Shown piece after piece: positions 10,697-47,129 of a DNA stretch of 64,000 bases (its first letter is position 1; every line of letters begins with the position of its first letter). The DNA is from Dysgonomonas sp. 25 (lineage in GTDB: Bacteria > Bacteroidota > Bacteroidia > Bacteroidales > Dysgonomonadaceae), in the NCBI RefSeq assembly GCF_010501075.1, contig NZ_QVMN01000008.1:91541-155540 (forward strand). Direction: 5' to 3'. A model generated the notes under the pieces. It had not been told where the DNA came from, ran no database searches, and was given only the letters and a program-made list of their open reading frames with translations. Position numbers and translations under genes: made by a program.

Positions 10697-12040
10697 TTAG
10701 TCTTTCTTGCAGCGGATGGAGATCAAAGCGTCGCGACCGGTTACATGTCGAACTATCTGTGCGCTGTTATACTCCGTAACCTGAAACCTTGCTTGGTTTC
10801 CAACATAACTACTGGCCGACCAAAAGTATCCATAGCCGCCATAGAGGTTGAACCCATTGTAGATGACACCAGCAAGATAAGCGTCAAATCCACCTTGCGC
10901 CGAGGATTTACTGATACCTGCGGTAGGTTGACTGTTGACTTCCGTGATGCTTTTCATCGCAGCACCGAGAGTAGAGTGAGAGCTATCATCATAGCCAAGC
11001 AAAGGGCTGCCGATATCAGCGGTAGTACTAAAGAGACTTGTTTTAAGGATAATGCCATTTTTCAGATCTGTCCATTCCTGATCGCTTGGCAAGTGCCAGT
11101 CTTGCGGACAAAGACCGCGGATACGAACGTCGTCATCGTAGCTTCCGCCTTGTAGCACATTCCCTGGGTCAGGTGTTTGTCCTGCTCCGTTACCCATATT
11201 GATAGCGGCTGCCCAGTTGTACAATAGTCCGTGCGCGCGCGTGACAGTAGCCTGATTGCCAGGGATAAAATAATAAGGGGAAGTATAGCTACTTGCTGAA
11301 GACTTGGTTATATTGCCCCCAGTGGGTAAGGTAGTTACTCGTAGGTGTTCAGTAGTCCAAACCCCGTCGACGAAAGTACGTTCTGTTTCTGTTTCAGTGC
11401 CTTCGTTTACCCAACTCGGACTGGCAGCAGGATCACATTTGTAACTGCGACTTATTTTATACGTTTTTACTTGGGTTCTATATCCCACATAGAAACGAGA
11501 AGTATTATAACTATTTCCTTGATGGTCGGTTATGGCTGGCGTTTTGCTGTTTCCCAGAGCATAATTCCCTGCAGCACGCTCTGTTTCTTTATCGTCAGGC
11601 CAACCTACAGGACTATCAGGGTCGAGGTATTCGAATCCGCGTACCATAAGTTGTAATGTTTTCTGTTTCAATGGCTCGGGATAAGTGCTCAAAGGTTGCC
11701 AAGTTTCTCCGTCCCAGATATGTACACCCGGGCATACGCGATTGGAAGCTGTTTCCACTTTATTGATGTTGTATACCAACAGCCCGATGTGCTCATCCTT
11801 ATCCCATGCAGGCCCTGTTGCCCCGTTTACAGAGACTTTGAGGTCGTTTCCCGCGATGGTAAGTGAATTTAACTTCACGCGTGGTAAGCCAAGCCCTTTG
11901 TTTGTAGAGGAGCCTTGTGTCAAATCCAATAACGCCCCTTTGTTAGGTGCTTGGTCACTTCCTATTGTCACCTGTCCGTGCAGGCTAATTGTTGTGAGTA
12001 AGGCTAACAGAACGATAGCCAGTGTCAAAGTTTTTTTCAT
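10697..12040 (-). CDS. Secreted FISUMP-domain protein (Fibrobacter succinogenes major paralogous domain)
   Basis: The 447-residue protein has a signal peptide (ends near LHGQ, residue 23), an N-terminal region with GSSTNKGLGLPRVKL and GLLVYN typical of Bacteroidetes surface proteins, and a C-terminal FISUMP domain: LLYNWAAAINM, RGLCPQDWHLPSDQEW, and a final YFWSASSY to SIRCKKD. FISUMP domains are abundant, fast-evolving extracellular domains of unknown function, related in pattern to C-type-lectin-like folds. Several cysteines (CPGVHIW, RGLCPQ, IRCKK) may form disulfides. About 1 kb of repeat-rich DNA lies upstream, so its promoter is uncertain. Confidence 0.82.
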   Translation of the reverse strand: MKKTLTLAIVLLALLTTISLHGQVTIGSDQAPNKGALLDLTQGSSTNKGLGLPRVKLNSLTIAGNDLKVSVNGATGPAWDKDEHIGLLVYNINKVETASNRVCPGVHIWDGETWQPLSTYPEPLKQKTLQLMVRGFEYLDPDSPVGWPDDKETERAAGNYALGNSKTPAITDHQGNSYNTSRFYVGYRTQVKTYKISRSYKCDPAASPSWVNEGTETETERTFVDGVWTTEHLRVTTLPTGGNITKSSASSYTSPYYFIPGNQATVTRAHGLLYNWAAAINMGNGAGQTPDPGNVLQGGSYDDDVRIRGLCPQDWHLPSDQEWTDLKNGIILKTSLFSTTADIGSPLLGYDDSSHSTLGAAMKSITEVNSQPTAGISKSSAQGGFDAYLAGVIYNGFNLYGGYGYFWSASSYVGNQARFQVTEYNSAQIVRHVTGRDALISIRCKKD

Positions 12041-12630: not shown

Positions 12631-12684
12631 ACGGCTATCGCAGCCCGGAATACCCCTGACATTAACACAAGCATATTTTTTAGT

Positions 12685-12805
12685 AGACGAGTTACAAGTT
12701 ACGAGTGACGAGTAGGGGCAAAGCCGTACAGCAGTTCGCAAGTTATCTCTTGTAACTCGTAACTGTGCGAAGCACGAAGTAACTGCCCGTAGGGCGAAGT
12801 AACTT
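12685..12805. repeat. GTAACT-hairpin repeat, copy 1 (two hairpins)
   Basis: The core reads CTTGTAACTCGTAACT, hairpin GTGCGAAGCAC (12765-12775), GAAGTAACT, hairpin GCCCGTAGGGC (12785-12795), GAAGTAACTT. The upstream part carries the inverse words (GAGTTACAAGTTACGAG). Related copies lie at 15827-15870 and 46473-46516. Confidence 0.65.
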
Positions 12806-12862: not shown

Positions 12863-12888
12863 GTGTGTGTGTGTGTGTGTGTGTGTGT
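12863..12888. repeat. (GT)13 dinucleotide tract
   Basis: Thirteen uninterrupted GT units in non-coding DNA, about 820 bp upstream of the FISUMP gene start and 190 bp beyond the 3' end of the O-methyltransferase gene. Such tracts change length by slippage. Confidence 0.95.
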
Positions 12889-15826: not shown

Positions 15827-15870
15827 CTTGTAACTTGTAACTGTGCGGAAGCACGAAGTAACTTGTAACT
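15827..15870. repeat. GTAACT-hairpin repeat, copy 2
   Basis: CTTGTAACTTGTAACT, hairpin GTGCGGAAGCAC (15843-15854), then GAAGTAACTTGTAACT. It lies between nagB and the NagB-like/PIG-L gene and stops just at the end of the latter. Confidence 0.65.
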
Positions 15871-15871
15871 A

Positions 15872-17851
15872 CTATAATGGTTTATACTGTACAAACGCTT
15901 CTATCGCTTCGTAGCTGGCAAGTCCCAGCTGACGGTACAACTCGGCAGTGGCGCGGTTACGATCTTCCGAACGTTGCCAGAAAAGCCGTTCGTCGCTTCC
16001 GAGGAACGGGGCGCTCTCCATCTGCGATTGATGTTTCAGGATGGCATTCCGTTTAGCGCGCAACTCTTCGGGAGAGATAGGTACAGCCATTTCGATATGG
16101 TCGATTTCCCATTCTGCCCAAGCTCCGCGATACATCCAGATGCGGCATTCTTTCAGCCATTCTGCGCCTTTCAATTCGTCTATCGCTGCCAGTGCTGCAT
16201 CCAGACAAACCTTGTGCGTCCCATGTGGATCGGCTAAGTCTCCCGCAACGAATATCTGGTGCGGCTTGACTTCTTCCAGATGTGCTTTGACGATTTCGAC
16301 GTCCGCTTCCGATATGGGATTCTTCTTGATTCGTCCTGTTTCGTAGAACGGCAAGTCGAGGAATGTCACATTTTTGGCAGGAACGCCTACATACCTGTCG
16401 GCTGTTAATGCCTCCTGTCGGCGGATATGTCCTTTCATAAACAGTACATCCGGCGTATCTACATCATCCTGTTTTTTGTCGTGCATCAGGAATTGCAGCA
16501 TTTCCGCATACTTCTGCTCCATCACCTTGTTGTCCGGTTCGTAACGCTTACGAACATCTTCGAGCATCCAAAGATAGCGAATAACTTCTTCGTCGCCAAC
16601 AGCAATGTTGCCCGAAGTCTGATAAGTTACATATACATCGTGTTTCTGATCGACAAGGCGCTTGAATGTCCCGCCCATCGAAATGACGTCGTCGTCGGGG
16701 TGAGGGCTGAATATGAGAACCCTTTTCGGGTAAGGTATAGCACGTTCGGGACGGTTCGAATCGTCGGCGTTCGGTTTTCCTCCCGGCCATCCGGTGATGG
16801 TGTGCTGCAAGTCGTTGAATATTTTTATATTAACGTTGTAGGCAGAGCCGTATAGTGTAAGCAATTCTTCGAGGCTGTTGTCCTGATAATCCTTGTTCGT
16901 CAGTTTCAGGATAGGTTTATCCAGCTTCTGGCAAAGCCATACGATAGCGCGGCGGATGAGTTTATTGTTCCAGTTGCAACTGGTTACCAGCCAAGGGTGA
17001 TTGATACGTGTCAAATCGAAAGCGGCATTCAGGTCGGCATAGATGCATGCATGCTGATGGTTTTGCAGACACGATGCCGGAATGGTGTCGGACAAAGGTC
17101 CTTCTACTACATCGGCAATGCTTTTGGCTTTGTCTTCTCCCCATGCAATCAAGGCTATTTCGCGCGCTTTCATAATGGTGGAAATACCCATTGTAATGGC
17201 GCTCGGAGGAACTTTGTCTAACGAGCCGAAGGTATTTATCGCTTCCTTTTTGGATTGCACATCGAGTAGTACCAGACGGGTTTGAGAACCCATGCTGGAG
17301 CCGGCAATGTTGATACCGATATTTCCTGCGCGTCCGAGCCCGAGCAGGATATAGTCGAGGCCGCCGACAGTCCTTATTTTCTTTTCGTAGTCGCGGCAAT
17401 GGTCGAGGATTGCCTCCTTCGATTCCATGCCGTTCAGTGAATAAATGTTTTCGGGTTTGATATCTACATGGTCGAGAAACAAATCTTTCAACAGGTTTAA
17501 GTTGCTGCTCGACGAAGCTTGTAGCGGATAGAATTCGTAAATGCTGAATACAATTACGTTTGCAAAGCTTAATCCTTCTTCGTGGGCGCGGATTAATTCC
17601 TGATAAACGGTCTGTGGCGAATGACCGCCGGGCAGCCCGATTGCAAAATGTTGGTTTTTCTCTTGCTTAGCCTTGATTTTGGCAATAATATCTTTCGCTA
17701 CTTGTATCGAGCCTTCGGTGGAAGATTCGAATATCCGGGTAGGGACTTTTTCGTAGCGTGTCAGTGCCGATAATTCGAACTCGTTTTCGGGACGATAGTA
17801 TCGCTGGGGCACACGGTCTAAGACTATTTGTGAACTTAAATCCAGTCGCAT
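15872..17851 (-). CDS. NagB-like pseudoenzyme domain fused to PIG-L deacetylase
   Basis: The 659-residue protein has two halves. Residues 40-290 align with NagB (IGLPGGHSP; GLGRAGNIGINIAGSS), but each expected catalytic residue is replaced: NMDEY reads SIYEF (103-107), and GPDGH...NEPG reads GRAGN...NIAG (from about 173), so Asp, Asp, His and Glu are gone. Residues 375-659 are a PIG-L/LmbE zinc-dependent deacetylase domain with SPHPDDDV (382-389, zinc ligands His384 and Asp387) and DPHGTH near 541-546. PIG-L enzymes remove N-acetyl groups from GlcNAc-containing compounds. The deacetylase half looks active; the NagB half may be a sugar-phosphate sensor or scaffold. It sits between the ROK gene and true nagB. 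Confidence 0.88.
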   Translation of the reverse strand: MRLDLSSQIVLDRVPQRYYRPENEFELSALTRYEKVPTRIFESSTEGSIQVAKDIIAKIKAKQEKNQHFAIGLPGGHSPQTVYQELIRAHEEGLSFANVIVFSIYEFYPLQASSSSNLNLLKDLFLDHVDIKPENIYSLNGMESKEAILDHCRDYEKKIRTVGGLDYILLGLGRAGNIGINIAGSSMGSQTRLVLLDVQSKKEAINTFGSLDKVPPSAITMGISTIMKAREIALIAWGEDKAKSIADVVEGPLSDTIPASCLQNHQHACIYADLNAAFDLTRINHPWLVTSCNWNNKLIRRAIVWLCQKLDKPILKLTNKDYQDNSLEELLTLYGSAYNVNIKIFNDLQHTITGWPGGKPNADDSNRPERAIPYPKRVLIFSPHPDDDVISMGGTFKRLVDQKHDVYVTYQTSGNIAVGDEEVIRYLWMLEDVRKRYEPDNKVMEQKYAEMLQFLMHDKKQDDVDTPDVLFMKGHIRRQEALTADRYVGVPAKNVTFLDLPFYETGRIKKNPISEADVEIVKAHLEEVKPHQIFVAGDLADPHGTHKVCLDAALAAIDELKGAEWLKECRIWMYRGAWAEWEIDHIEMAVPISPEELRAKRNAILKHQSQMESAPFLGSDERLFWQRSEDRNRATAELYRQLGLASYEAIEAFVQYKPL

Positions 17852-35203: not shown

Positions 35204-35261
35204 AATCAGTTAGCAGTTATCAGTCAACAGTTATCAGGTACTTCTTGTAACCTGTAACTAT
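35204..35261. repeat. Short degenerate repeats in the nuoG-nuoH spacer
   Basis: The spacer is made of repeated words: CAGTTAGCAGTTATCAG, TCAACAGTTATCAG, then CTTGTAACCTGTAACT. The last part matches the core word of the GTAACT-hairpin family, without the hairpin. Confidence 0.5.
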
Positions 35262-36305
35262 CTATTTTTTTGTTTCTTCTATCGCTTTCAATTCCTGTTC
35301 GTCGTACGGAACTTGTTCCATACTTATTTTCTCACGGTCTTGCGGACGTCCTTCCTCTACCAGCTCGCCCATATTGAGTTGTACTTTCTCGGTAGGCTTG
35401 GTATAGTTGTTGACGTTCAACACGGATTGCTTGCCGAATTCGCGAGGCTTTTCGATTGTCCAGTCAGACAATTCTTTTTTCTCGAAACGGCATTCGTTGC
35501 AGATGAATTCGTCCACTTCTCCCCATTCGTTTTTACGTGCCGAAACCCGTTGAATATGGTCGCCGAACATCCACAGTACCACTTTGCCCGAACAATGCGG
35601 ACAGTCGCGGTGGGCGTCGAATTTCTTGGTGAACCATACACGCGATTTGAAGCGGAAGGTCTTATCTGTCAATGCTCCCACAGGGCAAACATCAATCATG
35701 TTCCCCGAAAAAGCATTGTCTATCGAGTTTTTGATATAAGTCGATATTTCTGCACGGTCGCCACGGTTCAAGACACCATGTACCCGTTCCGGTGTGAGTT
35801 GGTCGGCAACATGTACGCAACGGTAACAAATGATACAGCGGTTCTTGTTGAGGGCTATATAATTACCGATATCTTCGGTAACGAATGTTTCTTTCTTCTC
35901 GATGAAGCGCGAATGAAAGGATTTATTTTCCATCGCCAAATCCTGCAGGCTACACTCTCCGGCCTGATCGCATACGGGGCAATCGAGCGGGTGATTTATC
36001 AGCAGCATTTCGGTAATCGCTTTGCGGGCAGTCAATGCACGGGGCGAAGTAGCGCTTTTCACTTCCATACCGTCTTGCACAGCCGTCACACACGAAGGTT
36101 GCAATTTGGGCATCGGGCGAGGATCTTTCTCGCTGCCTTTCGATACTTCGACCAAGCAGCAACGGCATTTCCCTCCGCTACCCTTCAGTTTAGCGTAATA
36201 GCACATAGTCGGCGGCACACAGTTGCCTCCGATCATGCGGGCAGCTTGCAGGATGGTTGTCCCTTCGGCTACTTCTATTGTTTGTCCGTCTATTGTAACT
36301 TTCAT
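35262..36305 (-). CDS. nuoG: NADH-quinone oxidoreductase subunit G, short form
   Basis: The 347-residue protein keeps the redox chain part of NuoG: a [2Fe-2S] domain (Cys35, Cys47, Cys50, Cys72), the His/Cys3 site HPLDCPVCDQAGEC, and a 4Fe-4S domain (CIICYRC; DVCPVGAL). It continues into the start of the molybdopterin-oxidoreductase fold (CPHCSGKVV to FICNECRF, two CxxC pairs) and then stops, lacking the large C-terminal domain of longer NuoG proteins (about 700-900 residues). Short forms are known in Bacteroidetes. It lies in the usual place between nuoF and nuoH, so it is not a random truncation. Confidence 0.92.
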   Translation of the reverse strand: MKVTIDGQTIEVAEGTTILQAARMIGGNCVPPTMCYYAKLKGSGGKCRCCLVEVSKGSEKDPRPMPKLQPSCVTAVQDGMEVKSATSPRALTARKAITEMLLINHPLDCPVCDQAGECSLQDLAMENKSFHSRFIEKKETFVTEDIGNYIALNKNRCIICYRCVHVADQLTPERVHGVLNRGDRAEISTYIKNSIDNAFSGNMIDVCPVGALTDKTFRFKSRVWFTKKFDAHRDCPHCSGKVVLWMFGDHIQRVSARKNEWGEVDEFICNECRFEKKELSDWTIEKPREFGKQSVLNVNNYTKPTEKVQLNMGELVEEGRPQDREKISMEQVPYDEQELKAIEETKK

Positions 36306-46472: not shown

Positions 46473-46516
46473 CCTTGTAACTCGTAACTGTCCACAGGAC
46501 GAAGTAACTTGTAACT
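46473..46516. repeat. GTAACT-hairpin repeat, copy 3
   Basis: CTTGTAACTCGTAACT, hairpin GTCCACAGGAC (46490-46500), then GAAGTAACTTGTAACT. The hairpin arms (GTCC/GGAC) differ from those of copies 1 and 2 (GTGC/GCAC) yet still pair. Confidence 0.65.
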
Positions 46517-46523
46517 CTTTTTT

Positions 46524-47129
46524 CTACTTGCTCATCTCGCGCGACTTGTCACCCAAATAACCGCCATGATGGCGTTTGGCATAGTCAGCAGGCGAAAAGT
46601 TGATTTTCTTCATCGTACCCACAACAAGGATGTCGCCTATGACAGTCATAACGGTGGTGGATGTGGTCGGCGTAAGGCATAAAGCGCATACTTCGGTCGG
46701 ATTTCCTGTAGGCAGGCAGATGGTTGCCTTTTGAGCTAAGAGGCTATCGGGATCGCTGGTGATAACGATAAATTTTATCCCCGGCACAAGCACCTGAGCC
46801 AGCGAAACCAGTTCTATAATTTCGCGTGTTTTACCCGAATTGGAAATAAGCAACATAATATCGTTCTCCTGCAAAATGCCGAGGTCGCCATGTTGCGCTT
46901 CGCTCGGATGGAGGAAAACGGCAGGCGTGCCGGTAGAGCTGAAAGTGGTAGCAATGTTTTGTGCTATCTGTCCGGCTTTACCCATCCCGCTGGTTACTAA
47001 TTTTCCCTTTTTTTTGTTGGTTTGCTCCACGATTAAATCGGTAGCCTGTTCGTATGCGTCCGAAACAGGTATGTTCAGTACAGCATTCGCTTCGTGTTCC
47101 AGTAAGGAACGTATTTCGTTTATTCCCAT
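46524..47129 (-). CDS. SIS-domain sugar-phosphate isomerase, arabinose-5-phosphate isomerase-like
   Basis: The 201-residue protein is one SIS domain of the KdsD/KpsF type, which converts ribulose-5-phosphate to arabinose-5-phosphate for Kdo and lipid A core synthesis. It has VTSGMGKAGQIAQNIATTFS, PAVFLHPSEAQHGDLGILQ and LLISNSGKTREI. The tandem CBS domains of typical KdsD (about 320 residues) are missing; SIS-only forms are known, including in Bacteroides. It is the last gene of rpoN-PAP2-gcvH-purE-SIS, 4 bp after purE. Confidence 0.85.
   Translation of the reverse strand: MGINEIRSLLEHEANAVLNIPVSDAYEQATDLIVEQTNKKKGKLVTSGMGKAGQIAQNIATTFSSTGTPAVFLHPSEAQHGDLGILQENDIMLLISNSGKTREIIELVSLAQVLVPGIKFIVITSDPDSLLAQKATICLPTGNPTEVCALCLTPTTSTTVMTVIGDILVVGTMKKINFSPADYAKRHHGGYLGDKSREMSK

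Follow-up and report, generated by a model that had tools for sequence, protein, structure and literature searches.

Three spacers in the window, a stretch of 64,000 nucleotides that forms part of contig C57 in the 3.74-Mb assembly of Dysgonomonas sp. 25, carry GTAACT words on either side of a small hairpin whose letters differ from copy to copy. This raises the question of what is conserved in such a unit, and of whether it acts as an RNA, as a binding site or as a DNA element that spreads. We examined its copies in the window, in the rest of the genome and in related genomes.

Copies in the window and their range

The three copies were all present with the letters given in an earlier note on this DNA, and lay far above chance. 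With at most one mismatch, GTAACTNGTAACT was found 8 times in the window against 0.15 expected, and GAAGTAACT 5 times against 0.31 expected, one of these (37953) outside any copy. The features of the window are as follows.

10697..12040, minus strand: FISUMP-domain gene, with copy 1 in its upstream region
12653..12672, minus strand: anchor on the right of the FISUMP leader slot, GCTTGTGTTAATGTCAGGGG as read on the gene strand
12690..12709, minus strand: GTAACTTGTAACT and GTCACTCGTAACT, inverted heptamers that belong to the larger block of copy 1
12752..12804, plus strand: core of copy 1, two units with period 20, in the order GTAACTCGTAACT, hairpin GTGCGAAGCAC (12765-12775), GAAGTAACT, hairpin GCCCGTAGGGC (12785-12795), GAAGTAACT
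12863..12888, no strand: (GT)13 tract, common to FISUMP leaders
15827..15870, plus strand: copy 2, CTT GTAACTTGTAACT, hairpin GTGCGGAAGCAC (15843-15854), GAAGTAACT TGTAACT
35247..35259, plus strand: decayed heptamer pair GTAACCTGTAACT without a hairpin, adjoining the stop of ORF 35262-36305 (minus)
46474..46516, plus strand: copy 3, CTT GTAACTCGTAACT, hairpin GTCCACAGGAC (46490-46500), GAAGTAACT TGTAACT

The block of copy 1 is larger than those of copies 2 and 3 and includes an inverted pair of heptamers (12690, minus; 12752, plus) in which those at 12690..12709 can pair with those at 12752. Copy 2 lies directly 3' of the stop of the minus-strand gene 15872-17851, and copy 3 lies 7 bp past the stop of a SIS-domain gene (46524-47129, minus). 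The hairpin unit can be duplicated in series, as had been proposed from copy 1 with its period of 20; serial units also occur among the genome copies read.

Genome-wide, the exact 13-mer GTAACTNGTAACT occurred 175 times (82 + 93; reversed control, 0), and the composite GTAACTNGTAACT-N9..22-GAAGTAACT gave 65 matches in which places with three heptamers are counted twice (41 + 24; control, 0). From these, 57 distinct hairpin copies were read in this genome. The spacing between words was fixed at 7, 20 and 27 bp. Of 61 genomes, nine had the composite, every one of them from the window's own genus; the 36 genomes outside that genus had none. A scan of 84,980 species, which may omit records of the window's own genome, returned 55 stretches from 11 assemblies named Dysgonomonas, Prevotella, Paludibacter or Tannerella sp.; across these 84,980 species the repeat has so far been found only in Dysgonomonas-type bacteria. 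A plasmid collection gave no match at E 1e-5. Pure GTAACTY triplets were present in 4 of 295 other genomes of the phylum, not above the reversed control (6 of 296). The reversed heptamer control pattern itself occurred 81 times in one other Bacteroidota genome, as an unrelated heptamer array family. The family still has no name that we could find: Rfam gave no match in the window at the gathering score, and no description of the composite was found in the open-access literature, the scope of the search, with subscription papers outside it.

Covariation, loops and fold of the hairpin

The 11-nt hairpin modules comprised 73 from this genome, 49 from relatives and four hairpins from genome G003, 126 copies in all. 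De-duplication on a shorter context, with copies near locus ends dropped, left 59-61 from this genome and 46-47 from relatives; tests on distinct hairpins are independent of this copy count. Hairpins of 10 and 12 nt were excluded from the covariation, mispair and 11-mer loop tests.

Among 30 distinct 11-nt hairpins, 95.8% of the 120 stem cells held a standard pair (shuffled mean, 85.0), both sides had changed in 15 cells (shuffled, 5.3), and the covariation score was 0.487 (shuffled, 0.270), each value being reached by none of 500 shuffles. Double changes were seen at all four stem pairs, as in 17 of the 500 shuffles. Controls with a slid register scored 0.207 or lower, and when whole arms were shuffled, none of 10,000 rearrangements reached the observed 105 Watson-Crick pairs in 120 cells (mean, 85.6). 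These controls leave kinship among the copies in place. The earlier note had proposed that the structure of the hairpin is conserved rather than its sequence, and had named a lack of significant covariation over many aligned copies as grounds for giving this up. Covariation was significant against the shuffles, and over the 30 distinct 11-mers it also exceeded the slide controls, so the proposal holds. Paired changes can also arise without selection, by template-switch correction of quasi-palindromes, and such correction could give the observed pattern.

Counted by copy, 19 of 504 cells were mispaired, 14 as G.T and 5 as A.C, with no other type. On the element strand, G.T stood against A.C at 14 to 5 by copy (p 0.06) and 10 to 5 by distinct hairpin (p 0.30); the mispair types do not clearly favour RNA over DNA.

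The loop is restricted. Its third base is A in 29 of the 30 distinct 11-mers, and it reads R-N-A in 27 of them. Six distinct 12-mers have a GNNA loop in five cases and ANNA in one, and two distinct 10-mer hairpins are also present. GNA and GNNA loops are described as giving extraordinarily stable DNA mini-hairpins (PMC4686876, in excerpt), and the loop rule of the element fits DNA mini-hairpins.

The core has the consensus CTY-GTAACTYGTAACT-(4-bp stem, R-N-A loop)-GAAGTAACTYGTAACT-A. Over 71 copies the profile, in which the GTAACT and GAA columns are set by the search pattern, was conserved from the CTY before the first GTAACT up to the A that follows the last, and fell close to background beyond these limits. 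Computational folding of the full 40-nt cores (25 from this genome, 44 from relatives) predicted nested hairpins with GTAAC:GTAAC pairing across an A.A mismatch. Since GTAAC pairs with GTAAC save for this central A.A, the direct heptamers are also quasi-inverted, and the 40-bp core is in this model one nested imperfect palindrome. The shuffle comparison covered the 26-nt unit alone, whose fold energy was not unusual (z -1.2 to -1.6).

Placement at gene borders and in FISUMP leaders

The 57 copies were classed by a simple rule on the letters that follow them, giving 13 of class A, 18 of class B and 26 of class C. Mapping against genes, which the earlier note had put forward as a check, placed nearly all copies between genes, their 3' end in most cases directed at a gene border. 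Outside ORFs of at least 100 aa lay 107 of the 109 copies examined, including all 54 copies from relatives, all 26 C copies and all 13 A copies; the remainder were 2 of 16 B copies, within predicted ORFs whose frames we suspect to be spurious. The 3' end was nearer the gene than the 5' end in 40 of 53 relatives' copies, 25 of 26 C copies and 13 of 13 A copies, whereas B copies had no preference (8 of 16). Among the copies of this genome, the facing codon is a stop for 20 of 26 in class C, and a stop codon lies no more than 60 bp from 11 of 13 in class A; the 53 copies from relatives divide into 17 that face a stop and 36 that face a start. All ten genes tested next to A copies encode FISUMP proteins (PF09603), the copy mostly lying 2-17 bp from the stop. 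The ten genes tested at B or C copies come from varied families.

Copies were compared with orthologous sites at four loci. The element was present in 0 of 21 orthologs at the copy 3 locus (SIS gene, window 46524; one spurious hit of 26% identity removed), 0 of 19 at the copy 2 locus (gene at window 15872), 0 of 22 at the LpxK locus and 0 of 21 at the TrkH locus (one truncated ortholog left out). The orthologs are far apart (54-88% protein identity), so the element may also have been lost in the relatives. A functional RNA was one role that had been suggested for the hairpin; conservation of an RNA at a locus left no sign at these four loci, the copy being missing from every ortholog read. No target duplication or exact empty site was found, the relatives being too distant for most gaps to be aligned. 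The gap after gene 15872-17851, which contains the element in this genome, holds a AAACCTTTC/GAAAGGTTT-type hairpin in 13 of 19 relatives, a palindrome of GTCTACT-word heptamers in one other (G012) and a TAACTGA array in another (G018). Arrays of the TAACTGA type are separate from the GTAACT repeat, for example at locus L205. At the LpxK locus (L121), the gene that directly follows in most relatives is absent beside the element here, which suggests a rearrangement. A further copy was found in IMG/VR, on a 6.3-kb contig where it separates a major head protein gene (phrog_29) from the ORF that follows, and the stretch of this phage-like contig with the copy also occurs in a contig of Paludibacter sp. 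221. The structure of the element is conserved, and its copies are lineage-specific and placed at gene borders.

The B copies, copy 1 included, lie upstream of FISUMP genes, copy 1 within a shared FISUMP leader. FISUMP leaders have in common an (AC)n tract, a palindrome that is short and AT-rich, a slot, and the anchor GCTTGTGTTAATGTCAGGGG, which has 43 exact sites in this genome and none in 24 other genomes of the genus. A survey of the slot (35 hits less 5 duplicates) covered 30 loci, of which 14 held a GTAACT block, 9 a CACCTCCCCCC...GGGAGGGGGTG block, 5 a GTNNAC-word block and 2 other contents. The classed inserts all fold as stem-loops, some weakly (z -1.6 to -7.0). The element is one of several exchangeable, unrelated hairpin blocks in one FISUMP leader slot. 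Among 56 distinct FISUMP 3' ends, 13 had a block within 70 bp after the stop, 15 had one upstream, 25 had either and 3 had both.

The (GT)n tract of these leaders has 6-14 repeats in the 28 leaders measured and lies 400-900 bp upstream of most genes; changes in its copy number could switch FISUMP expression. The FISUMP leader repeats break the assembly: three contigs (C4, C5 and C9; loci L019, L022 and L029) end within a B-type copy or beside one.

Known systems and possible explanations

Direct repeats of the heptamer TAACTGA are intergenic, differ in placement between strains and spread by an unknown mechanism (MacGregor 2015, PMC4679880); in a Bacteroidetes species they stand forward just before starts or reversed just after a stop (same source; both in excerpt). 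The GTAACT repeat resembles them in its intergenic, TAACT-based heptamers and in this start and stop placement. It differs in that its word is TAACTYG, paired, with a covarying hairpin between the arrays, a module that does not appear in the excerpted description of TAACTGA arrays (PMC4679880). A relationship between the two is our best reading.

Like REP and BIME sequences, the element is a short, high-copy, extragenic imperfect palindrome, single or serial and of suspected mobility (PMC3733652, in excerpt). Its 40-bp core and 57 copies lie within the REP definition of a 20-40 bp imperfect palindrome, extragenic and in high copy. The GTAG or CGTC end tag of REPs is absent, the core ending in CTYGTAACT and GTAACTA. 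The Y1 (RAYT) transposase family PF01797 had no match in this genome, nor in G005, G013 or G019; it occurs in 10 of 25 genomes of the genus, 5 of the 9 with strict copies and 5 of the 16 without. A RAYT-associated REP was therefore rejected, PF01797 being absent here and unrelated to copy number in the genus. Porphyromonas MITEs and BrickBuilt elements (PMC5771137, in excerpt) are likewise non-coding, dispersed in Bacteroidales and apt to break assemblies, but the element measures about 44 bp and no terminal inverted repeats of MITE length were identified in it. The 71-copy profile shows no conserved flank or duplication.

The genome also has a diversity-generating retroelement (DGR; C5:4938-7744, loci L245 and L135), complete with a VR-bearing FISUMP gene, bAvd, TR and RT.

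C5:4938-5125: VR in the FISUMP gene
C5:6227-6414: TR of the DGR
bAvd gene of the DGR: PF22296

Of 188 positions, 24 differ between VR and TR, and at 23 of these TR has A. The RT carries a motif that we take to be typical of DGR RTs. The FISUMP paralogs (56 distinct 3' ends, loci L219-L272) carry (S)VRCKKD at the end in most cases, and their variation is greatest at codons that read AAY in TR (positions 1/2, 0.68/0.61 vs 0.41/0.34 elsewhere), the third position varying as well (0.67 in AAY codons, 0.61 in others). Possibly they are targets of the DGR, either old ones or ones reached in trans. As recent TR copies they were rejected, since alignments of full length had 54-70% identity and in the main no concentration of mismatches at A; TR-paralog alignments of 1-39 nt, artefacts of free end gaps, were excluded. 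A stem of at least 6 bp with a loop of 3-5 lay within 60 nt of the stop in 16 of 56 FISUMP genes and in 25 of 190 control ORFs (p 0.013). Separately, a reverse transcriptase of the retron St85 family (NF038233, above cut-off) stands beside a large ORF (C32:135613-139161, L134).

We consider it about an even chance (0.5) that these copies represent a palindromic, REP-like DNA repeat, dispersed in Dysgonomonas, that spreads non-autonomously and without the usual Y1 transposase. This reading draws on the copy number with its zero control, the covariation, sharp edges, nested fold and intergenic placement, together with the absence from orthologs at four loci, the copy in a phage-like contig and the loops of stable mini-hairpin type. 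Against it stand the lack of a mobilising enzyme, of a target duplication and of an empty site, the ordinary energy of the 26-nt unit and the exceptions among B copies. A more specific version, that this is a new mobile repeat moved or copied as a single-stranded GNA/GNNA-loop mini-hairpin by a non-Y1 enzyme, within a set of interchangeable blocks at border slots, is offered only tentatively.

An untranslated-region RNA element at mRNA 3' ends, acting as terminator, stabiliser or attenuator and selected for pairing, would account for the A and C copies beside stop codons, for the other hairpin, palindrome or array that relatives carry after gene 15872-17851, and for three unrelated stem-loop blocks in the FISUMP leader slot. 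We regard it as rather unlikely, because the relatives' copies stand at starts more than at stops, the conserved loop in this genome is on the strand opposite to that of the facing gene, and a T-run after the core is no commoner than in nearby controls (this genome, 1 and 1 of 25 against 0 and 1 in controls; relatives, 5 and 2 of 44 against 2 and 7), on which an intrinsic terminator was also rejected. In a purely mutational account, 7-nt slippage would grow the heptamers and template-switch correction would match the arms, with neither selection nor a mobile enzyme. All 19 mispairs in the 126 copies are of the kinds expected from fresh single transitions, and heptamer arrays of several sequences occupy comparable gaps; yet slippage does not explain some 57 near-identical, sharp-edged composites at unrelated sites, and the loop rule is left unexplained, which makes this account unlikely in our view.

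The fixed word spacing would suit an array of sites for a DNA-binding or nucleoid protein that recognises GTAACTY, but a hairpin that changes freely and still pairs is needless for a protein that binds duplex DNA, and we think such an array improbable. DGR targets depend on a hairpin immediately downstream of VR (Guo et al. 2011, PMC3240598), with a GC-rich stem of 7-10 bp and a GRNA loop on the sense strand, 4-34 bp after VR (same source; both in excerpt). The presence of a DGR and the 13 FISUMP genes with a block shortly after the stop invite the comparison, as do the position after a C-terminal variable region, the importance of stem structure and the restricted loop. In the GTAACT element, by contrast, the stem has 4 bp, the loop 3 nt and GNA stands on the opposite strand, while most copies, C copies and those of relatives included, adjoin unrelated genes. 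The cognate VR gene itself has no GTAACT block and at most a 4-bp stem in the 60 nt scanned, on which a DGR target hairpin was rejected; we hold this role to be very improbable.

Under the REP-like reading, the repeat would spread non-autonomously within each lineage, probably in single-stranded hairpin form, which a DNA-processing activity acting in trans would recognise. Copies would persist at sites that tolerate insertion, next to start and stop codons. Shared flanks show that the repeat here is also a fixed module of FISUMP leaders and trailers and has multiplied with that large gene family; the order of these events is inferred.

Reports of heptamer arrays from several groups of bacteria have come without a mechanism. 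The covarying hairpin and its loop rule offer a handle on how such repeats spread, because an enzyme that recognises the hairpin can be sought, and the unrelated hairpin blocks swapped at one paralog slot are a natural record of the rebuilding of intergenic DNA.
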